IMG/VR virus record: IMGVR_UViG_3300042731_009084
Location: 1-32,749 of that record
Length of the DNA stretch: 32,749 bases
Strand: one strand, 5' to 3'
From: a virus
Shown here: in pieces, positions 5,709-30,931 of the stretch
Numbering within the stretch: the stretch's first letter is position 1
Layout: each line of letters begins with the position of its first letter
The notes under the pieces: model-generated
Seen by the model: only the letters and a program-made list of their open reading frames with translations
Told to the model about the DNA's origin: nothing
Database searches by the model: none
Translations under genes and position numbers: made by a program

Positions 5709-6413
5709 TTAATTAAACACTTTAACATAACACTGTAACTTGTTGGTGTTTATTGAATTATGATATACCCTATACTCATAAGTATGTTCGTACATGCAAC
5801 CCAATGCCGTATGTGTGAATTCATATTCAAGTGATACCTTGACGCTGCTATAAGAAGAAACTGAAATAGTATTATCGGTACTTAAATGGAATCCCTTATA
5901 CCTGATACCGAATATTATGTTCATACAAAAATTGGTTACACGATCATTCAGGATGTATGTATCGCACTTGTTTTTACCATCGTACTCTTCTGCTCTAGGA
6001 TATGAAAACCTCTGGCTTATCATACAGGCACCTACAAGGTATCTTGCATAAAGGCTTCTGTTATCAACACCTATCGATACGTACTCAAACGTTTTTGAAA
6101 GATCATACCTATCATAAGTGCTATCATATGCAGACACACTGTGTCTGCAATCGTGCTTAATACCGACACCAAGGAAATCATACCATTTCATGTATAGTCC
6201 CATGTAGTACTTGTCCTGAATAGGTTTGAAATAAACCTTGTGAGAATATTTTGAATCAGTTAGAACTCCCCCGGAAAGAGTAATCCTGTCACATATGGTT
6301 GCACTACATATCAAGTTAGTGAAATACAGTGACTCGATATCGTTTCTCAGCATATCATCGTTTATAGGGGAAATCCCTATGGTTGCCGCGAATAAAGTTG
6401 TAAGTAAATTCAT
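5709..6413 (-). CDS. Putative secreted/outer-membrane beta-barrel-like protein
   Basis: 234 aa. A short hydrophobic N-terminus (MNLLTTLFAATIGISP) could be a signal peptide. The rest alternates polar and hydrophobic/aromatic residues in strand-sized blocks: ITLSGGVL, YYMGLYMKWYDFLGVGI, FEYVSIGV, ARYLVGACM, CMNIIFGIRYKGF, SVKVSLEYEF. It ends VKVFN. Such a pattern is typical of 8- to 12-strand outer-membrane barrels, with GVGIKHDCRH resembling the periodic strands of small bacterial barrels. No family is firmly recognised. Its ATG overlaps the stop of the membrane protein upstream, so the two are co-translated. In a phage it could alter the host surface or block other phages; inference only. Confidence 0.5.
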   Translation of the reverse strand: MNLLTTLFAATIGISPINDDMLRNDIESLYFTNLICSATICDRITLSGGVLTDSKYSHKVYFKPIQDKYYMGLYMKWYDFLGVGIKHDCRHSVSAYDSTYDRYDLSKTFEYVSIGVDNRSLYARYLVGACMISQRFSYPRAEEYDGKNKCDTYILNDRVTNFCMNIIFGIRYKGFHLSTDNTISVSSYSSVKVSLEYEFTHTALGCMYEHTYEYRVYHNSINTNKLQCYVKVFN

Positions 6414-6715
6414 TTTAACTCCCTTGAAAATGTTAACGATAAACTTTCAGATGAGACACTTGAGCTCTCTTCACATGCCATTGAACTATCATCTTCATTT
6501 CGAAGTATGTGATACGATAAAATGGCTCTTTCAATTGCTTCATTTATATCACAATCTTCAAGATCACTTATGTGTCTCAGTCTCAACCATGTGCTTTTTG
6601 GCAAGTTCTTGTTTTTGAACGAATTCCACATTAATTCGTGTAGGCTAAATAGTACTATTGTAACCAAAGCAAATAAAACAAACATAACCAAAGCAAATAA
6701 AGCAAAATCAACCAT
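6410..6715 (-). CDS. Membrane-anchored small protein with RHH-like segment
   Basis: 101 aa. Residues 3-25 (FALFALVMFVLFALVTIVLF) form one transmembrane helix. The following part has STWLRLRHISDLEDCDINEA and IERAILSYHIL, which resembles the strand-helix-helix of ribbon-helix-helix proteins, though this is only a pattern match. The C-terminal 25 residues are Ser/Glu-rich (EESSSVSSESLSL). GAGG lies 5 nt before the ATG, and its TGA overlaps the next gene (ATGA). It could hold its partner, the barrel-like protein or a regulator, at the inner membrane. Function unknown. Confidence 0.55.
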   Translation of the reverse strand: MVDFALFALVMFVLFALVTIVLFSLHELMWNSFKNKNLPKSTWLRLRHISDLEDCDINEAIERAILSYHILRNEDDSSMACEESSSVSSESLSLTFSRELK

Positions 6716-13416: not shown

Positions 13417-16400
13417 TTACTCCTTTTCAAGGTTTTTGATTCTTTCATTCAATTCAATGATATGAATCGCCATTACTTCTATAGTTTCGGTAAGTTTTTG
13501 TATTGATTCACCTGTAGACAGCTTTTTACCTGTTTTCTCCGATTCATCTAACGCTGGTAATGTTCTTTCCTCCTTTATATGCTTACAGAATGAATCTATA
13601 TCAAGAGACCTTTTTCTGTTCCTAATAAAGTTCCTTGCTGGCCCGTGGTTACCTCCGGCTAATGAATCCCATTTCTCTATATTGAAGTTTTTATTGTATT
13701 TATAATCAAGTGGATATCCCGATACAAGAGAGCCATCGTCGTATAGTGCCTTGGCATTAATTGTGCCATCACCCATAGCTCCACCTGAAGGACTCCCGGT
13801 TGTTATTCCATTTGAATATATCTGTAAAAGATCAGTATTACCGGTTACTCCTATTTGCATTGTACTTGCTGCAGTCATAGCTACATTTGTTCCTGTTGCT
13901 CCAATGTTCAAATAGGGTGCACTGTGTATTGTATCGAGATAAAATATTATTTCTCCTTGTCTCAGCATTATTTCACTCGCAGGACCAGAATGGGAAGAGC
14001 TTTGCGCTGATTTTATAGACACTCTCCCGGCAAGATTTAAGTCGTCATAATCACTACCATAGAACTCTATTCCAGAACCCCTGCGCCATCCCAAAGCCCC
14101 ACAGGACGACATATAAATCATACCAGTATCATTACCATTGTAGGTATTAAGGATGAAGCCCTTGGAGTAATCTGCTTGATACAATGGGAAATAAACATTT
14201 CCGGGAAGACTTAAATGTCCAAAAGACTCATCGTAATGCATGTACGATGTTGCTATTGAGCTATCCGAATCTATGTAAGGTATTTTTCCGTCAGTGTTGT
14301 ATAGTGAGGAAAGTTTTATTTTACCATTTACAAGTACGTTGCTTTTCATATGACATCCACCATCAACTGTAAGTAGTGAATCGGGAGACGTTTCTCCTAT
14401 ACCAACATTACCATCACTGTTTATTCTCATCCTCTCTGTACCCTGTATTGTTGTATTATTTGCTGCTGTGTAGAACCTTAGAAGGGTTGCAGCGTTACAG
14501 GTAGTGGAACCACCACCGATATGTACCCTGTTCTCTGAAGATGTTGAAAGACCGTATAAAAACATTGCCTTCTCTTCTGCGCTCAGATAATGAGGAAATG
14601 CTATCCTTGAGTATTTATCAGCTGTGTTCGTTCTGCTACTTGAGCCATTATCAGCACCTACAAGAAGTCCTAATCCACCATAGCATACATCAAGTGAGGC
14701 TTCTGGATTATTTATTCTAATCCCTACATTGGTACCGAAACGGGCATTTCCAGAAAGGTAGCTACTACCTATAACAGAAAACATGGAATCAGGCGTTAAG
14801 TCGTTTATTCCTACCTTACCGTCAGTAGTTATGCGCATGCGTTCAACATACGAACCTGATCCGGCCATAAGCGAAAGCGGACCTACATCTGTTCCAACAT
14901 TTAATTTATCCGCATATGTAAGACACATAGTAGTTCTTATTGTTCCGCTATAATCCTTTTGCCTCATCTCATAATTATTATCTAATAAAAAGTTACCATT
15001 ATGAAGATGAATAACTTCCTCAGGTGTATTTGTTCCGAGTCCAAGGTAACCGTTTATTCTTACATGCCCCGAAAAACTTCCTGAGCCATTAACTGTCAGT
15101 GTTGAGTCAGGTGAAAAACCTACACCTAATTTTCCCTCAAAAAATCCATGATTTGTATGTATTGAACCATCAACGGTTAATGTTGAATCAGGAAAGTTTG
15201 TTCCTATCCCGACACTACCGCCGGTGAAATACGATGAGCCATACGAACTGAGAAACAAATCCAAATTGTTAGATGCATCATAGGAAGCAAAATAACCCCC
15301 TTGCGAATTTGACGCAGCTACTATCGATGCTGAGTTATCACCTGTATTCGATACAAGCATTGAAGGACTACTACCATCTATATGAAGGTTTTCCGCAGGA
15401 GTATTCGTCCCTATCCCGACACGTCCACCAAAGGTACTATTTCCAGTAACTCGAAAGCTGCCATCTACATCAAGCATTGAATCAGGTGTTTCATCATTAA
15501 CGCCTACGTTCCCATTGTAAATTATTATTGGTGCAGACGTAAACGAATCATATGTTTCTACATAATACGGGACATGTAAATCTTCTATTATACCATTGAA
15601 ATCAATACCACCAGATAATATGGTATTTTTTAATTCGTCAATATCAATTTGCCTTATCGTATCACCTGCAGCAGTTGTTTTGCATAATACGTAGGTCGGT
15701 TCTGTTGTCACACCACATGGTAATTTTAGAGTGTCGATATCTGCTGTTCCAGCAACATCTAATATTGAACCGGGAGACGCTTCTCCCATACCTACCCTAC
15801 CACCAAAATAGCTATTACCAATAATCCTGAAACTTCCGTTAATATCGACAGTAGAGTCTGGAGAGCTCGCTCCGATCCCTACATGACCTTCTGGAGTTAT
15901 TGTCATACGTTGGGAACCTGCTGTGGTTGTATTGTTGGAAGCGGTATAAAAGGTTATGTTTGTTGCTGCATTTAAATCAGCAATACCACCACCTATTCTT
16001 AAGTGGTTTTGAGTACTTGACGAATAGTTATACACTACTGTAAAAGGCTCCTCTGCATTCAATCTGTGAACAGAACTAATGCTCGAATATTTAGATGTGT
16101 TATCAGTTCTAAGCGTATCAAAATAATTCCCCCCGATTACTAATGAACGCCCACCACTTGCTATATCAAGTTTTCCATTAGGAGAACTATTATTAATTGC
16201 TACATTGGTACTATGTATTGAAATTGGGGAAGTCGTAAATGAATCATACGCTGCTACATAATAAGGAACATGCAAATCTTCGATAATGCCGGAAAAATCT
16301 CCACCAGAACCAGAAATTGAATCCACATGCATGCATCTTATTGTATCATCAGGTGATTTTACTAAAACATAGTCTGCTGAAGTAACTGTATCACATGTAA

Positions 16401-20836: not shown

Positions 20837-22722
20837 TATCGTACTCTTTTCATTATTTCAGACATCAACCTATCGACTCCACGGTCACCATTCCTCATTT
20901 TTGTGGTAATGGTATCAACCAACGTACCTGAGCTATCCTGAATATATACGTTTAATGGTTGAGCCTGACTTCCATTATTTGCAGCTTTCCATAAATTAGC
21001 CTGTTGCTGTTCATTAAGTATCATTTCATTCTTATTCACTCTGGCTATTGTGCGGTCACCAGAACGTGTCCCATAGTCTACAATTCCACCATCCTTGAAT
21101 GCCATTATTCCGGCTTTTGCTGTTTCGAATATCCCGGTAATTAATGCTGCTTCTCCAGTTGCTTTTAATAATCCGATTGGACCCATTGCCATGAAACTTC
21201 TTATCTGGTTTCCAACAGTAGCAGCAATCATCTGTTTTTCCAGAAAACTGATTGTAATTCCAAGAGTATCTTTCAGTGCATCTTTCATTGAACCCTCGCC
21301 CCCTGCAATACCTTGGGCCATTGATGCACCTATCGCCTCGCCGAAATACTGATAGTTCAGAGCTCTATCTTCAAGTCTTGCCTCTTCTTTATCTTGATCT
21401 TTTTTATCAGCCTCAGCTTTTTTCTGGCTAGCCTCCCAATGCAACCGCGCTGCTTCCTCAGACCACTTCTTTGCATCGTCATACATTTTTTTCTGGAAAT
21501 CTTGCTGAGCAACTATCTGTTTCTCATAATCCTCTCTTGATGGCCCAATCATAGACAACCATGCGTCTTTATCAAACTTTTCGCCCTTCTTTTTGGTCTT
21601 TATGCCAGTAATTGTTGGTGTTATGCTTTTTCCTGCTTCACTCGCTCTTCTAAATGATTCATCGTTCATTTCCTTAAGAGCGGTCTTTACCATTTTGATC
21701 TTTCTATCAAGATTTACAAGTTCATTAGACATCCTTATAAAATCATTTGTACCTTCTGATTCTTTTACAAGTTTTAATTGCTCTTTACGTGCTTTATTTA
21801 ACTCAGATAGTTTATCAAATAACATAGATGCGCCATTCTCACTCTTTTTCCAGACTTCATCTATTTGTCGTGATAATTTGATATCTTCAAGAGACTCCCC
21901 TTTTATTAGTCTCATAGCTATCCCAAGTCCTTTTATCGTATTTGTAAGCATTGGGACTGCTGTTTTTGCCATTTTCAGCATGAGACCATTCCACTGTACC
22001 ATTAAAGGCATGAGTTCTGTACCAAGTTCCTCTTTCAGATCACCTACAGTGTTCTCCATTTGCTTAAGCCTACCAACATCAGTACTGGCTATGGCTTGAG
22101 CGACACCACCAAAAGCAGCGTCTATATTTTTAAGTAATGATTCCATTCTAACAGAAGAGTCATTTGACTTCTCCATTTGAATGCCGTATCGGGATAAGGC
22201 GTTTGTACCTGAAGAAATAGATTTTACAACTAAATCCGTAGCTGTTCTAAGGTCCATTTTTTTAGCTGCAGCCAAGTCAAGTGCAGCCTTTTGAATTCGT
22301 TTTACAGCGTTCTCTTCTTTTATGAAAGCAGTAATAAGAGACATACTGGATATTACTACCTCATCACCATATGTTGACGTGGCTTGTAGTTGCGCAGCAT
22401 AATCCTTAAGGCTTTCGGATTCATATCCAAGTGTTGCAGCAAGCGAGGCTTCTGCATCGATTTGCACTTTAGCAAGTTCTATTGATTCGTTTTTTAAGTC
22501 AATGACTTTCTTTGTTGCAAGCACAACACCTGCAAGGATTGGCAAAAGTTTTGACATCGACATCCCGACACCTCGCCAAGATTGCGACATCCTTTGGGTA
22601 CTTCTTAAGGTTTTAGCCTCTATAGTACCCGTATCTGATATCATCTTATTTCTTACATTTGCAAGGTTCTTTGTAGCCTCATCAATAAGCCTGATTTTTA
22701 CATCAATATTTTCATCTGACAT
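20836..22722 (-). CDS. Tail tape measure protein
   Basis: 628 aa. The N-terminus is helical (IDVKIRLIDEATKNLANVRN), then SWRGVGMSMSKLLPILAGVV (hydrophobic) and LAATLGYESESLKDYAAQL, the usual tape measure opening. A charged coiled-coil stretch (DAKKWSEEAARLHWEASQKK) lies at about 420-450. The C-terminus carries small hydrophobic segments (ALITGIFETAKAGIMAF) and DGGIV, common in tape measures. By the rule of about 0.15 nm per residue it predicts a tail of roughly 90-95 nm. It follows the frameshifted chaperone pair, as expected. Confidence 0.9.
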   Translation of the reverse strand: MSDENIDVKIRLIDEATKNLANVRNKMISDTGTIEAKTLRSTQRMSQSWRGVGMSMSKLLPILAGVVLATKKVIDLKNESIELAKVQIDAEASLAATLGYESESLKDYAAQLQATSTYGDEVVISSMSLITAFIKEENAVKRIQKAALDLAAAKKMDLRTATDLVVKSISSGTNALSRYGIQMEKSNDSSVRMESLLKNIDAAFGGVAQAIASTDVGRLKQMENTVGDLKEELGTELMPLMVQWNGLMLKMAKTAVPMLTNTIKGLGIAMRLIKGESLEDIKLSRQIDEVWKKSENGASMLFDKLSELNKARKEQLKLVKESEGTNDFIRMSNELVNLDRKIKMVKTALKEMNDESFRRASEAGKSITPTITGIKTKKKGEKFDKDAWLSMIGPSREDYEKQIVAQQDFQKKMYDDAKKWSEEAARLHWEASQKKAEADKKDQDKEEARLEDRALNYQYFGEAIGASMAQGIAGGEGSMKDALKDTLGITISFLEKQMIAATVGNQIRSFMAMGPIGLLKATGEAALITGIFETAKAGIMAFKDGGIVDYGTRSGDRTIARVNKNEMILNEQQQANLWKAANNGSQAQPLNVYIQDSSGTLVDTITTKMRNGDRGVDRLMSEIMKRVR

Positions 22723-23093
22723 TATTTCCTCACTGCCTCTTTTTTATTGAAAACCATAGAGATAAAATTAAATACAGATATGAGCATTTTTGGCTGTTTA
22801 AGCATGGGACCACCATCAGGGAATTGAAATGAATGTTTGTAGTGGTAATAATACTTGAATATGTATTCATGGGAGAACATTTTTGCATGTGCATGAATGC
22901 ATCTAAATAGTGGTATTTTACCCTTGCCGGAACAAAGATCACAAGAAGGATCATTCCCACAGTAGCAATCTATCTTATGCGGTATTGTTACTGGATTCAT
23001 ACATCCCCTTCTTTCTTTGTCGTCTTTGCTGCATGTATTACAATCGAATAAGTAACAATGAGGCTCAAACTGCATTATGATATAACATATCAA
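22722..23093 (-). CDS. Tail assembly chaperone, second frame (expressed by -1 frameshift)
   Basis: The frame is read from an A-run in the preceding gene into 123 codons ending 22722. An independent start would be the TTG at 23093 or ATG at 23075, neither with a ribosome site. The region is Cys-rich (CNTCSKDDKERRGC, then CYCGNDPSCDLCSGKG), followed by HKHSFQFPDGGPMLKQPKML, which matches the 'G.LP..GG..dQP..f' tail-chaperone motif. In lambda-type phages this product (gpGT analogue) binds the tape measure during tail assembly. The Cys pairs suggest a zinc site, unusual for the family. It overlaps the tape measure start. Confidence 0.7.
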   Translation of the reverse strand: MICYIIMQFEPHCYLFDCNTCSKDDKERRGCMNPVTIPHKIDCYCGNDPSCDLCSGKGKIPLFRCIHAHAKMFSHEYIFKYYYHYKHSFQFPDGGPMLKQPKMLISVFNFISMVFNKKEAVRK

Positions 23094-23410
23094 GTTTTTT
23101 TTTCACTGGCACTTAATTCGTTTGCTTTCTGCCATACTTGGATAATTACCTTAAGTTTCTCATTTATGGTTAATGAATCACATATCTTGTGCCTTTTGAA
23201 ATAATCTGGTTTGTCTTTCGGACGACACTTTAAAACAACTTTCCCGATCAATTCATCAATCAACTTAACCGAATTATCTTTTTGTTCATTGATTGATTCG
23301 TTCATCTTTATGTATTCACGTTCAAGGTCACCAGTAACAGGCTTAAACGTCCACTCAGTACCGTCCTCATCAGTATATTCAACCTTATCCAAACAGCATA
23401 GAGGTATCAT
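23090..23410 (-). CDS. Tail assembly chaperone, first frame (gpG-like)
   Basis: 106 aa, starting MIPLCCLDKVEYTDEDGTEW. Residues 60-105 have CRPKDKPDYFKRHKICDSLT and INEKLKVIIQVWQKANELSA. Its last codons, GAA AAA AAA ACT TGA, lie on a run of nine A, a slippery site from which the second frame opens at -1. The product is made in excess over the fusion in related phages. It overlaps the tail tube stop (ATGA). Confidence 0.72.
   Translation of the reverse strand: MIPLCCLDKVEYTDEDGTEWTFKPVTGDLEREYIKMNESINEQKDNSVKLIDELIGKVVLKCRPKDKPDYFKRHKICDSLTINEKLKVIIQVWQKANELSASEKKT
23095..23103 (-). promoter_or_regulatory. A9 slippery site for -1 frameshift
   Basis: The minus strand reads GTG-A9-CTTGA. In zero frame this is GAA AAA AAA ACT TGA. 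A -1 slip on A-AAA-AAA reads AAC TTG and enters the second chaperone frame, whose upstream stop (TGA) lies immediately before the run. The fusion would be about 229 aa. Confidence 0.75.
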
Positions 23411-24348
23411 GAACCACTCCCGTCAAAAGTAATTGAGTATGCATTATTTGTGAATTGCCCGTTTAGGTCAAACATCTTTACTCCGTCGTCTACAGAGTCT
23501 TCCACGCCCATTATTTGAGAAGATGCAGTTGAACCGATAGTAATGACACTTGAACCACTCCCGGTAACAAGAGAAAATTCACTATTATCTACACCTACCA
23601 ATGGGGTGAACGGATTCAACTTTGCGGTATCCTCTGTAAGAACCTTTGCAGTCCACTTGGCAGGTCCCGGAACAAGCTGTGCTCTCCAGTACCCATACTG
23701 CGAACCATCAATAAGCAACTTAACCGTATATCCGAACATTATTTCAAATTCAGATACTTTGTAGCTGATATCATTTATGGTAGCAGTACTGATGGTAAGT
23801 ACCGGGATATCATCATCTAACATTGAAACAGAAGGGTAGTTTCCACCTGCAGGTATAGCAGAAACAACACCCTTGCCGTTAAGCCTGAGTCTTAACGGTG
23901 TTCCAACCTTTCCAACAAGAGAACCCTCGAACATCATATTTTTAGCCTTCATAATAAGGCAATCACCAGCATTCTTTTGTCCCGAATAACCATACATTGA
24001 TACTGCGCTGTAGTCGCCTTCAAAGCACGGAGTATAAACTATTGTACCATTTGTAGCTGCATCAAAACCACAGGCTTTTAACAGGGGATCAACCACAGGC
24101 GCAACAGGTGAGCCGCTATCAGTTTCTGCAAATGCTTGAACCTCTCCAGTGAAATCATATGACGCATTTCCACATAAACCTTTCTGATTTCCACCATTGT
24201 CATTAGCAAGCCGGTTTTCTTCCATTTCAGGACTGAATTTAAGCTGAAAACCTTCTACAAACGGCATGTATGAAGGCGAAGTATTTTCAGTAGTGAGTCC
24301 TGACTGAATACCAACCTCTATAATTTCTAAGCCTTTAAACGCACCCAT
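23407..24348 (-). CDS. Major tail tube protein
   Basis: 313 aa. Beta-rich, with GLCGNASYDFTGEVQAFAET, SAVSMYGYSGQKNAGDCLIM, LVGKVGTPLRLRLNGKGVVS and FEIMFGYTVKLLIDGSQYGY. Pattern and length suit tail tubes of siphoviruses with an inserted surface domain. An AGGAGG ribosome site is among the strongest in the block, fitting an abundant structural protein. Position: after the tail terminator candidate and before the chaperone pair and tape measure, the canonical order. Confidence 0.78.
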   Translation of the reverse strand: MGAFKGLEIIEVGIQSGLTTENTSPSYMPFVEGFQLKFSPEMEENRLANDNGGNQKGLCGNASYDFTGEVQAFAETDSGSPVAPVVDPLLKACGFDAATNGTIVYTPCFEGDYSAVSMYGYSGQKNAGDCLIMKAKNMMFEGSLVGKVGTPLRLRLNGKGVVSAIPAGGNYPSVSMLDDDIPVLTISTATINDISYKVSEFEIMFGYTVKLLIDGSQYGYWRAQLVPGPAKWTAKVLTEDTAKLNPFTPLVGVDNSEFSLVTGSGSSVITIGSTASSQIMGVEDSVDDGVKMFDLNGQFTNNAYSITFDGSGS

Positions 24349-24357
24349 GAGTACCTC

Positions 24358-27033
24358 CTATACTTGATATGTTAACGACCATTTACTTATTAATTCCTTA
24401 GAAGTAAAAACACTTCTTGTTTTGGTGTTTACTGGCTCCATTTTTACGAATGAAAAATATCCTTGTTTAAATTTTCTTACTGTTACACCGGCATTCGATA
24501 AAAGAAATAAACCTTTTATATCGTTCAATACCGTAGCTGCATCCGGCCAAATAGCATCTTGAGGTCTATCAGCAACATTACTCAGTTTTGGCTTTATTTT
24601 AATGGTTATTTCTGACTTATATATCCCGAAAAGGTTCATTGCCAAACTGATGGATTCTTCTTTCTCAATTTTTACATCAATTGCCGGGTATGTCGATAAT
24701 GCGTTATCAAATGCATTGATACTACCGATATCGTATGAATACCCATTTGATTGAGTTATTAATTCAATTCGATCCTTTATCTTTTCAACATAGTCATATA
24801 CCGTTGCTGTAGTCACACTATCTCCTGACTCGCTACTCTCCGAAGAATTACTGCTTTCTGATGATATTGAAATACCACTAAACGAAGAGTCGCTACTATA
24901 TGAAGATACACTATTACTTGAGCTTTCGCTCGATAAACTGCTCTCAGAGGACGAGGAATCGCTACTGTCAGACGATTCGGAGCTATCTGAACTATCACTA
25001 CTATCTGAACTTTCACTGCTCTCAGAGCTCTCTGAGGAAGTAGAAACGCTACTTTCGGATGAATCACTACTCAGGGAAGATTCGCTACTTATACTTTCTG
25101 AACTTATACTTTCCGATGAAACAGATGATTCGCTGGATTCAGAACTTTCGGATGATACTGAAGTACTGCTTTTAGAAATTGATTCACTACTATCTGAAGA
25201 CTCAGAGCTTTCACTACTCTCTGAGGATTCACTACTGATAGAAGTTGAAGAAACGCTGCTTTCCGACGATTCACTACTCTCACTTGAAATGCTGGTGCTT
25301 GATACACTGGTACTGCTTTCAGATGATTTGCTCCCGGAAAACGACGATTCACTACTATAACTGCTTTCACTCGACTCGCTGGATTCGCTGGATTCGCTTG
25401 AATCGGATGAAATACTTGTACTTGAAACACTACTCTCAGAAGACTCACTACTCTCACTGCTTTTACTCACTGAATCAGAAGAGCTACTTGCACTACTGAT
25501 ACTGGTTGAAGATACGGAAGACTCTGAAGACTCAGAAGACTCACTTGATTCGCTACTGTCTGAAGATGCTGAACTCGCAGAAATAAGGCTTTCACTGCTT
25601 TCGCTACTCTCACTGGATTCGCTACTCTCAGAGGATTTGCTTACAGATACACTACTCTCAGAAGATTCACTCGATTCACTCGATTCACTGCTCTTGCTTA
25701 CAGAGTCAGAAGAGCTACTTACAGATGATCCTGACGATTCACTGCTCTCACTCGATTCACTACTATTACTGGACTCGCTTGAATCACTGCTGGTACTTGA
25801 TATGCTTTCAGATGAGACGCTACTCTCAGACGACGCGCTACTTATTGAAGTACTGCTCTCACTCGATTCACTGCTCTCACTGCTCTCACTTGATTTACTT
25901 ACCGATTCAGAGGAACTACTATCTGACGATTCAGACGATTCAGACGATTCGCTGCTTATCGATACACTGCTCTCACTGGACTCACTACTTTCCGACGAAT
26001 CACTGCTCAGTGAAGACTCACTTGATTCGGACGACTCACTACTGATACTGGTCGACGACTCACTACTATCGGAAGATAAGCTACTTGTTGAACTCAGGCT
26101 TAATGAGGATTCAGAACTTTCTGAGGATTCGGAACTTTCGCTGCTCTCAGATGATTCAGAGGACTCTGAACTTATACTGATAGACGATTCACTACTCTCA
26201 GAAGATTCAGAAGACTCACTGGACTCTGATGATTCGGAACTCTCACTTACAGATGATTCGCTACTTTCCGAAGATAAAGAGCTCTCACTGCTTTCTGAAG
26301 ATGCTGAACTTATACTTGTTGATGAAGTACTAGATTCAGAGGATTCACTTGACTCAGACGATAAGCTACTACTTGAAGGTACATCCTCTTTGAATACAGC
26401 ATACACACCAACATATTGTGGATATGGATCCCCACCCGGATTCGAGGAAATACTAAAAGTAGCAGGAATAGGAGTAGTTGAAGAGTAACTCCTATACTCA
26501 GAAATCATATGATAATCAATTGTAGACTTCTGTATTTGTGTGAAATTCGTACCAGCTGCCGATCCGGGATCAGCAACGTATGATTCAATGTAAAATGCAA
26601 AAAGAAGAGTCCCTGCCTGTGAAGGTGTAAGGTTTGAACTCTGTATTACATCCGTTCCCGGAGAAGGCATACTACCATAAAAAAGGGTATAATCATCAAA
26701 TGGTGATGCAGCCATATCTGAGAATTCAAATATCTGCATCCTCCGGTATTGCTTCCATCCCCCAAGTGTCCACGTGACAGTATTTGCTCCACCATTACAA
26801 CTTGCGCAATACCATAATGCTATATCGGTATAGTAACCATCGTGAAAATACTCTGCTACTTTAACCCATGAGTTACCCTGAGAATCCGAAAGACTCATTG
26901 AAGAATCATTACCACCACCGGAAACTACAGCAATAAGCATGTTCCCGGCTGTGTTATTCGAAGGATACGCTAAGTCAGTAGTGGTTTGTACCCAACCATT
27001 ATTTTCATAGTTTGCTGATTGTATTAAAGCCAT
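24358..27033 (-). CDS. Adhesin-stalk-tail terminator fusion protein
   Basis: 891 aa in three parts. Residues 1-219 form a beta-sandwich-like domain (NMLIAVVSGGGNDSSMSLSD, SQGNSWVKVAEYF, NTVTWTLGGWKQYR) like carbohydrate-binding jelly-roll modules. Residues about 220-739 are a low-complexity Ser-Glu/Asp stalk built on SSES. Residues 740-891 (VYDYVEKIKDRIELITQSNG to WSLTYQV) form a compact alpha/beta domain whose size and place fit a tail terminator. The gene lies between the neck genes and the tail tube, where a terminator belongs. Ser codons mix TCN and AGY, so the repeat is kept as protein. AAAGG precedes the ATG. This would place a flexible adhesive arm at the head-tail joint. Confidence 0.7.
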   Translation of the reverse strand: MALIQSANYENNGWVQTTTDLAYPSNNTAGNMLIAVVSGGGNDSSMSLSDSQGNSWVKVAEYFHDGYYTDIALWYCASCNGGANTVTWTLGGWKQYRRMQIFEFSDMAASPFDDYTLFYGSMPSPGTDVIQSSNLTPSQAGTLLFAFYIESYVADPGSAAGTNFTQIQKSTIDYHMISEYRSYSSTTPIPATFSISSNPGGDPYPQYVGVYAVFKEDVPSSSSLSSESSESSESSTSSTSISSASSESSESSLSSESSESSVSESSESSESSESSESSESSESSISISSESSESSESSESSESSESSESSLSLSSTSSLSSDSSESSTSISSESSESSESSLSSDSSESSESSESSVSISSESSESSESSDSSSSESVSKSSESSESSESSESSTSISSASSESSVSSESISSTSSDSSESSNSSESSESSESSGSSVSSSSDSVSKSSESSESSESSESSVSVSKSSESSESSESSESSESLISASSASSDSSESSESSESSESSVSSTSISSASSSSDSVSKSSESSESSESSVSSTSISSDSSESSESSESSESSYSSESSFSGSKSSESSTSVSSTSISSESSESSESSVSSTSISSESSESSESSESSDSSESISKSSTSVSSESSESSESSVSSESISSESISSESSLSSDSSESSVSTSSESSESSESSDSSDSSDSSESSDSSDSSSSESSLSSESSSNSVSSYSSDSSFSGISISSESSNSSESSESGDSVTTATVYDYVEKIKDRIELITQSNGYSYDIGSINAFDNALSTYPAIDVKIEKEESISLAMNLFGIYKSEITIKIKPKLSNVADRPQDAIWPDAATVLNDIKGLFLLSNAGVTVRKFKQGYFSFVKMEPVNTKTRSVFTSKELISKWSLTYQV
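24817..26376 (-). repeat. SSES low-complexity coding repeat (about 520 codons)
   Basis: The minus-strand frame encodes runs of SSESSESS with scattered D, T, V, L, I and K. Synonymous Ser codons are mixed between units. The antisense strand gives long open frames of Leu/Ser/Asp that are shadows of this composition. Confidence 0.9.
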
Positions 27034-27038
27034 TTGGG

Positions 27039-27260
27039 TTAACCTTTAAGCATCTTTAGTATTTTATCGATTTTATCATCAATATTTTCTAACTTTTCAA
27101 TCTGTGTTTTTAGGTTCTCTATTTTCTGTTCATGGCTTTCAATTCTTGCTCCACTTTTAAACGCGAAAATAAGCATAGGTGTTGAAAGGGTAATGATAAC
27201 ACCTATTAGCCATACCCATGATACGAATACACTTTTGCATTTGTCTTGTGAACAAGTCAT
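27039..27260 (-). CDS. Single-span membrane protein with coiled coil
   Basis: 73 aa. A transmembrane helix, about residues 12-34 (FVSWVWLIGVIITLSTPMLI), is followed by a coiled coil (ESHEQKIENLKTQIEKLENI) with heptad spacing to the end. GGGGG before the ATG is the ribosome site. The layout resembles holin-associated XhlA-type proteins with domains in reverse order, but no family is certain. It is odd to find a membrane protein between the connector genes and the tail fusion. Confidence 0.55.
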   Translation of the reverse strand: MTCSQDKCKSVFVSWVWLIGVIITLSTPMLIFAFKSGARIESHEQKIENLKTQIEKLENIDDKIDKILKMLKG

Positions 27261-27261
27261 A

Positions 27262-27693
27262 TCACCCCCTAAATAATAGGCCGCCAGAGATAGTATCCAC
27301 CATACTCAAATCATCTTCATCCATTTCGAACATTTCTTTGGTAAGTGACATTTGTATCTTTTGATACTTCTCTGTATAGTAATCAAGTTTTACCTTATAT
27401 ATTTCATCTTCGTCAGTTCCTACTTCATTTGTACACCAAACGGCTTCACATACAATGGAACAAAAATATGCAACCATATACTGTTTTATCCGATAATTCA
27501 ACCCGTTATTGGTTACGTTATTACTAAAAACATTCTCAGTTACTCCAAAGGATTTGCATACTTCCATTATATCATTTTCAGTATCATCCAACCATGATTG
27601 TACTCTTGAGTCTGATGCAGTTATAAACCGTGTAATTATTGTATCGGTTATATAATCAGTATCCATTATTGCATAAGTCGTCGACGTACTCAT
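27262..27693 (-). CDS. Head-tail connector (adaptor-like) protein
   Basis: 143 aa, mainly helical. Starts MSTSTTYAIMDTDYITDTII, then TRFITASDSRVQSWLDDTEN. The central part GLNYRIKQYMVAYFCSIVCE and LDYYTEKYQKIQMSL resemble helical adaptors that attach to the portal ring. Position between coat and neck genes fits. It overlaps the upstream gene by ATGA with GAGG as ribosome site. Assignment by layout and helical pattern. Confidence 0.6.
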   Translation of the reverse strand: MSTSTTYAIMDTDYITDTIITRFITASDSRVQSWLDDTENDIMEVCKSFGVTENVFSNNVTNNGLNYRIKQYMVAYFCSIVCEAVWCTNEVGTDEDEIYKVKLDYYTEKYQKIQMSLTKEMFEMDEDDLSMVDTISGGLLFRG

Positions 27694-28127
27694 ATAGCCT
27701 CCCTGACCGCTTTTTTTACTTCATTAACAATATACTCTTTATTTTGTTTAAAGGCTTTCTCAAGGAATTTAACTGGTTTAATACCACTCACCATATGCCC
27801 TTTCGAGAAGTGCTTACCACCACCTTTTACCCAATATAGTGCTTTCTTATTAGTAGGTTGTACAAAATGGGGCCTCGTACCCTCATGTACGAATATTGCC
27901 GGTTTATTATTCGGATCAATATATATTCGGGCCTCTAATCCAGACACCTGCGTTTTCAATGAATCAGATATGTGTTGATGCTTGTCATTGACTTTTTTCC
28001 GTATAATGACTTCAGCATCCGAGACAATTTTTTTCAATATGATTTTTTGGGCAATACGTAATTTGCTTTCAAGATTTTTGGAAAAATTGAAAGATAGGGA
28101 AGTGTTTACATTAACGCTGATATCCAT
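27690..28127 (-). CDS. HK97 gp10-like neck protein
   Basis: 145 aa from the ATG at 28127. The frame is open to a TTG at 28172, but that start would put a terminator-like hairpin inside the gene. Residues YIDPNNKPAIFVHEGTRPHF, then VQPTNKKALYWVKGGGKHFS and KPVKFLEKAFKQNKEYI match the 'HEGTxPH' core and C-terminal helix of HK97 gp10 family neck proteins. They help join tail to head. The upstream hairpin may tune its level. Confidence 0.72.
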   Translation of the reverse strand: MDISVNVNTSLSFNFSKNLESKLRIAQKIILKKIVSDAEVIIRKKVNDKHQHISDSLKTQVSGLEARIYIDPNNKPAIFVHEGTRPHFVQPTNKKALYWVKGGGKHFSKGHMVSGIKPVKFLEKAFKQNKEYIVNEVKKAVREAI

Positions 28128-28130
28128 AAC

Positions 28131-28163
28131 AAATAAATGTGGGGCCAGTTTCCCGGCTCCCAC
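28131..28163 (-). terminator. Imperfect terminator after the coat gene
   Basis: On the minus strand GTGGGAGCC pairs with GGCCCCAC (one bulged A) over an 8-nt loop, followed by ATTTATTTG. It probably lets only part of the transcript through and so favours coat protein over neck and tail proteins. Confidence 0.6.
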
Positions 28164-28175
28164 ACTCAGCAAGTA

Positions 28176-30055: not shown

Positions 30056-30598
30056 TTATACTAAAGCACTCGATTCGCTACTCGTTGAAGAGCTACTTAC
30101 CGAAGTACTACTACTACTTACAGATGTACTGCTACTACTTGTCGATTCACTTGACGTGCTTGTTGAACTTTCACTGCTGTCTGAACTCTCGCTACTTTCT
30201 GATGAAGTACTCTCTGATGAAGTGCTTGTCGAAGACTCGCTACTTTCAGAACTTTCAGAACTTTCAGAACTTGTGCTTTCAGAGCTCTCACTTGAGTCAC
30301 TACTGTTCTGGTCACCACAAACGATTGCGATATAGGTATGGGAACTAACTTCGAAGAATTCAGTTACACCGGGCATTATCGGTGCAGAGTCTTTGGTTGC
30401 AGCAATTGTACTATCACCAAAGGCGATATATACAATATTCTCAGAATATCCCATGTTTGTGATACGAACAATTCCATAGCTGTATACAGGGATTGCCTTT
30501 GATGTCCCTGTTGCATTTCGCAATGGCACGGCTTCTATTAACCTAAATTTACCGTCTTCCATTACACCTAACTGAATACTAACTGGCGCAATCCCCAT
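30056..30598 (-). CDS. Head-region protein with Ser-rich C-terminal stalk
   Basis: 180 aa. Residues 1-98 form a small beta-rich domain (MGIAPVSIQLGVMEDGKFRL, AIPVYSYGIVRITNMG, GVTEFFEVSSHTYIAIVCG). Residues 99-177 are SSES repeats (SSDSSESSESTSSESSESSE) ending SSALV, the same low-complexity composition as the 891-aa tail fusion. It lies between the GroES gene and the scaffold gene, so a decoration protein or head fibre is the best guess. AAGGAG before the ATG. Confidence 0.6.
   Translation of the reverse strand: MGIAPVSIQLGVMEDGKFRLIEAVPLRNATGTSKAIPVYSYGIVRITNMGYSENIVYIAFGDSTIAATKDSAPIMPGVTEFFEVSSHTYIAIVCGDQNSSDSSESSESTSSESSESSESSESSTSTSSESTSSESSESSDSSESSTSTSSESTSSSSTSVSSSSTSVSSSSTSSESSALV
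30059..30304 (-). repeat. SSES low-complexity coding repeat (about 80 codons)
   Basis: The same Ser/Glu/Thr composition as the long repeat at 24817-26376, in a separate gene. Codons are mixed between TCN and AGY. Confidence 0.85.
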
Positions 30599-30610: not shown

Positions 30611-30931
30611 TTACTTAATTACTGCAATGATATCATCTGCACGTACATTATGCCATTCATTTCCACCGTCTTCAATTGTACTCTTCGCATAAGTAGAATA
30701 TAGTACAATATCACCTACATTGAATGTCATTCTTTTTATGTATATCCCATTAGGACCTTCGATGTCCTTTCCCGGACCTGTTGCCTCGACTTTCCCCATT
30801 ATTGTTTTTAGGGCTTTTTGATCTTTCTCCGGGAGTATTATCCCATGAGAAGATGTCTTTTCCCCTTTCATTGGTCTTACTATTAACCAATCTTGTTTCG
30901 GGTAAATGTTTACTTGCTGAGGACGTTCCAT
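30611..30931 (-). CDS. groES: Phage GroES-like co-chaperonin
   Basis: 106 aa. Matches the Cpn10 fold: WLIVRPMKGEKTSSHGIILP (start of barrel and mobile loop), IMGKVEATGPGKD, then FNVGDIVLYSTYAKSTIEDG and VRADDIIAVIK. Co-chaperonins cap the GroEL ring; phage versions such as T4 gp31 let the coat protein fold in the host GroEL. It lies in the head gene group, before scaffold and coat. Strong AAGGAG ribosome site. The upstream small gene overlaps it by 182 bp in another frame. Confidence 0.92.
   Translation of the reverse strand: MERPQQVNIYPKQDWLIVRPMKGEKTSSHGIILPEKDQKALKTIMGKVEATGPGKDIEGPNGIYIKRMTFNVGDIVLYSTYAKSTIEDGGNEWHNVRADDIIAVIK

Follow-up and report, generated by a model that had tools for sequence, protein, structure and literature searches.

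An uncultivated siphophage carries in its neck cluster an 891-codon gene in which a beta-rich domain and a very long acidic serine stalk are fused in frame to a 152-residue C-terminal domain that is probably the tail terminator. A ribosome site placed exactly at the junction suggests that the gene probably makes two products, a free terminator and a stalked form. We lean slightly towards a two-product neck gene in which translation from the ATG at 27033 would yield the stalked terminator, translation from the GTG at 24816 would yield the free one, and both would enter a single ring. The sequences themselves support the fusion, the constraint on its stalk, the C-terminal domain's orthology and place in the gene order, the junction ribosome site and the occurrence of similar N-terminal fusions in relatives.

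The fusion gene and its neighbourhood

The window, by which we mean the whole stretch of 32,749 bases analysed here (IMG/VR virus record IMGVR_UViG_3300042731_009084, possibly an incomplete record), encodes most of one siphophage virion on its minus strand. Along that strand the head genes are ordered portal, MuF-like head protein, GroES, a small SSES-tailed protein, scaffold and P22-coat-5-type capsid protein. The neck genes follow: the Neck1/tail completion gene (phrog_5), the adaptor-like gene, a 73-aa ORF that combines a coiled coil with a membrane segment, and the fusion; downstream of the fusion come the tail tube protein, tail chaperone, tape measure, and distal-tail-like and fibre genes (Table 1). 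The coordinates given for the fusion in a preliminary description of this DNA were exact, the ORF lying on the minus strand.

Table 1. Positions in the window of the fusion gene, its parts and selected neighbouring genes.
Feature	Position	Strand	Remarks
Full fusion ORF	24358..27033	minus	891 aa: beta-rich domain, SSES stalk, terminator domain (probable)
N-terminal beta-rich domain, residues 1-218, putative binding domain	26380..27033	minus	single-sequence AlphaFold2; phrog_38872
SSES stalk, residues 219-738	24820..26379	minus	336 Ser and 105 acidic residues of 520
Probable tail-terminator domain, residues 740-891; predicted free 152-aa product	24358..24816	minus	orthologues in L028, L031, L017, L093, L096
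AGGAG ribosome site inside the fusion	24822..24826	minus	5-nt spacer to GTG at 24814-24816
Weak ribosome site of the full-length ATG	27042..27050	minus	-3.4 kcal/mol
Tail tube (major tail) protein, next gene downstream of the fusion	23407..24348	minus	homologues in L028, L031, L017, L096; distant L093 homologue matches PF18906
Adaptor-like neck protein	27262..27693	minus	in relatives, homologues directly precede the terminator
Neck1/tail completion protein	27690..28172	minus	phrog_5, E 1e-11
Second SSES protein: small domain and C-terminal SSES tail	30056..30598	minus

Three other members of the cluster are described here in their own right. The GroES-like co-chaperonin of the head cluster (30611-30931, minus strand) matches PF00166 (E 5e-15). 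The 73-aa ORF amid the neck genes (27039-27260, minus strand) gives weak holin/XhlA-like matches and has no homologue in the related loci. The tail chaperone ORF (23090-23410, minus strand) weakly matches PF23857 Phage_TAC_19 (E 0.009) and ends in a run of nine A at about 23095-23103; a Cys-rich ORF that opens on a codon other than ATG (22722-23093, minus strand) overlaps the end of the chaperone, with the A run just before it, and a programmed frameshift giving a G/GT-type chaperone pair at 22722-23410 (minus strand) is probable.

The stalk and the N-terminal domain

The 520-residue SSES stalk recognised in the preliminary description is borne out at residues 219-738, with a composition of 336 S, 88 E, 17 D and 6 K. 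Over this region the translated frame alone is open, the other two forward frames carrying 16 and 112 stops. Across the 87 copies of SSES there are 71 distinct DNA spellings, and every one of the six Ser codons is used, so the amino-acid pattern has been retained while the DNA diverged; by the evidence of its codons, the stalk is under protein-level constraint and is no chance open frame. An assembly artefact or spurious join was considered as its source and is countered by a frame that runs unbroken over 520 codons with so many spellings. Given its repeats, the exact length of the stalk may have been altered in assembly.

By the rule of thumb of 0.36 nm per residue, the contour of the stalk could reach about 190 nm; at the usual 0.15 nm per tape-measure residue, also a rule of thumb, the 628-residue tape measure of the window would imply a tail roughly 95 nm long. 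Being flexible, the stalk would have a mean span much below its contour. Sequence of this kind occurs elsewhere in the window. The second SSES protein, in the head operon, joins a small domain to a C-terminal SSES/STS tail and is a possible capsid decoration protein, and a predicted membrane protein (6410-6715, minus strand) bears a short serine-rich stretch, SSSVSSESLSL, near its end as a third trace.

Residues 1-218 are all-beta in a single-sequence AlphaFold2 model of low confidence (mean pLDDT 51, pTM 0.54). The domain matches phrog_38872 (E 2e-4), a family of unknown function, and gave no match in Pfam or NCBIfam. Fold comparison of the model returned no meaningful match, and neither tblastn in phages and plasmids nor a protein scan of IMG/VR found relatives. 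An earlier reading of this N-terminus as a lectin-like beta-sandwich agrees with its beta content, within the limits of a low-confidence model; its lectin nature was not established by the Pfam, NCBIfam and fold comparisons. An adhesin role is plausible, and host glycans are the natural guess for its ligand. The adhesin reading has better support among the relatives, in which the next gene, encoding the tail tube, carries a fused LamG lectin domain.

A ribosome site at the domain junction

Residue V740 is encoded by an in-frame GTG at 24816 that stands behind AGGAG (24826-24822) with a 5-nt spacer; no other in-frame start of the ORF has a site like this. The anti-Shine-Dalgarno energy of this junction site is -7.4 kcal/mol, against -3.4 for the full-length ATG (27033); the latter begins 5 nt past the stop of the preceding ORF and probably leans on coupling to it. 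The strength of the junction site is equalled or beaten at 6 of the 216 internal NTG codons in the window, V740 included. Synonymous-codon shuffles reproduced an equal site together with a start codon in 0.8% of cases; when the start codon was ignored, an equally strong site arose in 11% for the window and in 9% for the related locus L096, so that per gene the statistics are modest. RNA accessibility around the starts gave no discrimination between them.

The internal AGGAG-5-GTG predicts a separate, undecorated terminator and with it a mixed ring. The preliminary description, which missed this start, had proposed six flexible arms at the head-tail joint; the number now expected is up to six and probably fewer.

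Fusions in related phages

Alignment of five capsid proteins recovered 80 related loci, and direct searches with the C-terminal domain gave none. Homologues of residues 740-891 are present in 3 of these 80: L028 (153 aa, E 3e-12), L031 (153 aa, E 8e-10) and L017 (261 aa, E 2e-4). Further searches added homologues in L096 (154 aa) and L093/L094 (159 aa). The stand-alone orthologues (153-159 aa) all begin where V740 of the fusion aligns. These relatives are few and metagenomic, and several L031-type contigs are near copies of one another (L031, L087 and L089-L092 are near-identical, and L031 and L088 are the same contig).

Fusions upstream of ring genes recur among them. The L017 terminator has an extra N-terminal domain of about 104 residues, Ig-like by eye and without a Pfam match. 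In six L031-type contigs an N-terminal LamG lectin domain (PF13385, E 8e-17) is fused in frame to the tail tube, and the tube has retained its own ATG at residue 208, preceded by AGGATGGGCCT in five of the six contigs and by AGGATGGTCCT in L089; the unfused tube gene of L028 carries AGGAGGGTTAT at the equivalent place. The tail tube of L096 (L096:7874-9793) bears an N-terminal domain of about 318 residues, beta-helix-like by eye and without a Pfam or PHROG match, and its junction reads GGAGG-CTCCT-ATG. A start codon lies at or beside the junction in all of the fusions, with a site that is strong in L096 (-9.5 for the internal start versus -2.8 for the long form), weaker in L031 (-7.0 versus 0 to -2.7) and absent in L017. 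The stand-alone terminators of L028, L031 and L096 have weak ribosome sites too (about -3 to -4), and site strength alone is therefore no predictor of output. Among HK639-type terminators in the related loci, none of 36 has a convincing N-terminal domain, the single longer ORF looking like a mis-called start. The tail-tube gene of L017 is present as tandem diverged copies (L017:12594-13574 and 13590-14204), the second of which runs off the contig.

In the LamG case it is the fused lectin that varies among near-identical phages. In the L031-type fusion (L031:12797-14380 and its equivalents) 34 of 207 codons are variable in LamG, versus 4 of 320 in the tube (Fisher p 4e-11); the variable LamG codons cluster at residues 86-127, and the adjoining terminator gene differs by 0-1 nt among the six contigs. 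The fused LamG domain is therefore the part that evolves fast, as expected for a host-contact domain. We considered a diversity-generating retroelement as the source of this variation; allelic exchange is likelier, because about half of the variable codons are synonymous and no template repeat was found in the loci retrieved.

The relatives also bear on whether the short product is made at all. Every terminator subunit might be full-length, giving a ring with six stalked domains, in which case the internal ribosome site of the window would be a relic of an unfused past. L017 would fit such a design, since the strong site there (-9.8) belongs to the long form, the ATG near the aligned start (M102) having none (-1.5); its terminator subunits may all be decorated, and the two-product design is therefore not universal. 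Sites of this kind can also arise by chance, five other internal NTG codons in the window, of 216, being as good. A relic would be expected to decay, however, and the junction site in the window is intact and stronger than that of the full-length start. Moreover, the T5 terminator stays monomeric when N-terminally His-tagged (PMC11784142), so that a supply of unextended subunits makes sense; this is suggestive only, as its authors take the untagged protein also to be monomeric until its partners are met (PMC11784142). We judge an all-full-length ring to be unlikely in the window.

Identity of the C-terminal domain

The homologues of the C-terminal domain in L028, L031 and L017 sit directly between homologues of the adaptor-like and tail-tube genes of the window. 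The L096 homologue lies between adaptor-like and tube genes as well, and that of L093 is also placed before the tube gene; in the window the 73-aa ORF intervenes between the adaptor-like gene and the fusion. The identity of the window's tail tube is supported by a distant homologue in L093, which matches PF18906 at E 4.7e-5, slightly below the curated cut-off. In HK639, an annotated relative by its capsid, an annotated tail terminator of 149 aa occupies the same slot before the tail tube, and the 152 aa of the C-terminal domain fall within the about 130-160 aa of terminators. Six-frame searches of the window with family and HK639/DUF4128-type profiles revealed no second terminator, the fusion being the sole match to the family profile, although a very divergent one could have escaped them; a rival terminator gene nearby, which the preliminary description had named as the observation that would speak against its reading, was thus not detected.

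Similarity searches beyond these loci were silent. The C-terminal family had no significant match in Pfam, PHROG, NCBIfam or PDB sequences, and comparing profiles with those of known terminator, adaptor, neck and head-closure families likewise yielded no significant result. The best hhalign result, to the gene in the same slot of Me-ZS1, had an E of about 0.05, which is not significant. This silence is weak evidence, because the HK639-type and Me-ZS1 families, which share the slot, likewise fail to match each other (E 0.07). Single-protein scans of IMG/VR and of bacterial genomes and tblastn in phages found no relatives of the C-terminal domain; a single-protein scan of IMG/VR found none of the capsid protein, and a search of genome contigs with the tail-tube alignment gave none either. 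The single-sequence AlphaFold2 model of residues 740-891 was unusable (pLDDT 36). Place, size, orthology and synteny therefore argue for the terminator assignment first proposed in the preliminary description, whereas profile comparison and the predicted fold do not confirm it, and we conclude that the domain is probably a tail terminator.

With profile and fold leaving the matter at that strength, and with no head-closure gene identified in the window, the domain could instead form another neck ring, for example the head-closure (stopper) ring, or be another tail component. The architecture would be the same and only the anchoring ring would differ. Against this, the domain directly precedes the tail tube, as does the annotated HK639 terminator, and its length is closer to those of terminators (149 aa in HK639 and 161 residues in T5; PMC11784142) than to those of head-closure proteins (117-118 aa in HK639 and Me-ZS1). 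We consider a different ring or tail component to be quite unlikely.

A model for plain and decorated subunits

In the two-product model that we favour, initiation at the upstream ATG would give a long form composed of a beta-rich, probably surface-binding domain, the acidic serine stalk and the terminator domain. Initiation at the internal GTG, with its own ribosome site, would give the free terminator. The long and short forms would co-assemble into one hexameric ring, which would close the tail tube and dock it to the head. With the free form a working ring would be secured or its assembly guarded, while the long form would equip the neck with one to a few flexible whiskers, their binding domains held off the virion. 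It is possible that these whiskers help the phage to find its host or to stay on it. The terminator fold and the hexamer, the use of the internal start, the ratio of the two products and the binding of a host are the parts of this model that we infer.

A short form could also arise after translation, if the long protein were made and then cut so that the N-terminal domain and stalk were released or exchanged and the 152-residue part stayed in the ring. Serine-rich stalks are accessible to proteases, and the use of a compact terminator by the relatives would agree with such processing. No protease gene or junction cleavage motif was identified, however, and an internal start would give the short form without either, which makes cleavage very improbable. 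Least credible of all is a functionless fusion made when recent stop-codon loss or an assembly error joined a domain-plus-stalk gene to an intact terminator gene: the other SSES protein of this phage does end in an SSES tail with its own stop, and the repetitive stalk is hard to assemble, but the open frame continues without a break into the terminator, entering it precisely where the terminator starts, and comparable fusions occur in several relatives and persist in six L031-type contigs.

The two-product gene may be one case of a wider habit. It is quite possible, though short of probable, that this group of uncultivated siphophages places unrelated binding domains in frame upstream of terminator or tail-tube genes while keeping the start and ribosome site of the ring gene, and so builds virions with a tuned mix of plain and decorated subunits, in the window as serine-stalked whiskers arising from the terminator ring. 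If this is true, fusing a new domain upstream while retaining the old start would be a simple route to gain or swap host-binding domains on virion parts that possibly do not tolerate modification of every copy. It would explain how a ring survives a large N-terminal addition, and it predicts neck whiskers built by an essential ring protein. Phage genomes could then be screened for its signature, a ribosome site at a domain junction. Judging by the LamG case, domains acquired in this way seem to diversify quickly, in keeping with parts that contact the host.

Comparison with known systems

Tail terminators fold as a four- or five-strand beta-sheet with two flanking helices and form a hexamer on the last ring of the tube that is required for joining the tail to the head. 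The window protein resembles the terminators of siphophages (lambda gpU, SPP1 gp17, T5 p142 and HK639_11) in its slot before the tail tube, in the size of its terminator domain and in having stand-alone orthologues in relatives. It differs from them in lacking detectable profile similarity, in its fusion to a domain-plus-stalk of roughly 740 residues and in its internal start.

Two further systems share single elements of the design. The staphylococcal Sdr adhesins present a binding domain on a long, low-complexity, acidic Ser-Asp repeat; they are bacterial and wall-anchored, and their resemblance to the stalk of the window would be one of design and not of descent. Phage lambda has a morphogenesis gene, C, whose in-frame internal start yields the shorter protein Nu3, encoded by its C-terminal part. 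C and Nu3 are a head protease and scaffold, unlike the decorated and plain ring subunits proposed here. Our search for literature on internal starts in phage structural genes gave nothing usable.

Accessory or binding domains at the head-tail junction have precedent. The NPS of lactococcal 936 phages carries carbohydrate-binding modules at the neck, as a separate protein (PMC6669499). The portions of two further reports at hand describe an R4C adaptor with an N-terminal Ig-like domain on a long flexible loop (PMC10276861) and a phage 812 terminator with a beta-sandwich and unresolved whiskers (PMC12886913); in those portions neither protein has a Ser-Glu stalk of 520 residues, and a nested start is not described. 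In the literature searched, which was covered in part, we found neither a terminator with such a stalk nor a nested start beneath an N-terminal fusion to a ring protein.

The closest parallels are SPP1 gp17.1/gp17.1* and the MTP-TpeX of 936 phages, in which one gene supplies a plain and a decorated tail ring protein (PMC8718954, PMC6669499). The decorations are Ig-type or carbohydrate-binding domains (PMC8718954, PMC6669499), and the C-terminal extension of gp17.1* is made by a frameshift at a plain to extended ratio of 3:1 (PMC8718954). In these phages a ribosomal frameshift adds a C-terminal domain to the tail tube, whereas in the window an N-terminal domain is joined in frame to the terminator and the plain form is predicted to come from an internal start; the frameshift type of C-terminal decoration is absent from the fusion. 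Both accessory domains at the neck and pairs of plain and decorated tail-tube proteins are thus already known, and the gene described here would be the N-terminal, internal-initiation counterpart of the SPP1 and 936 systems.
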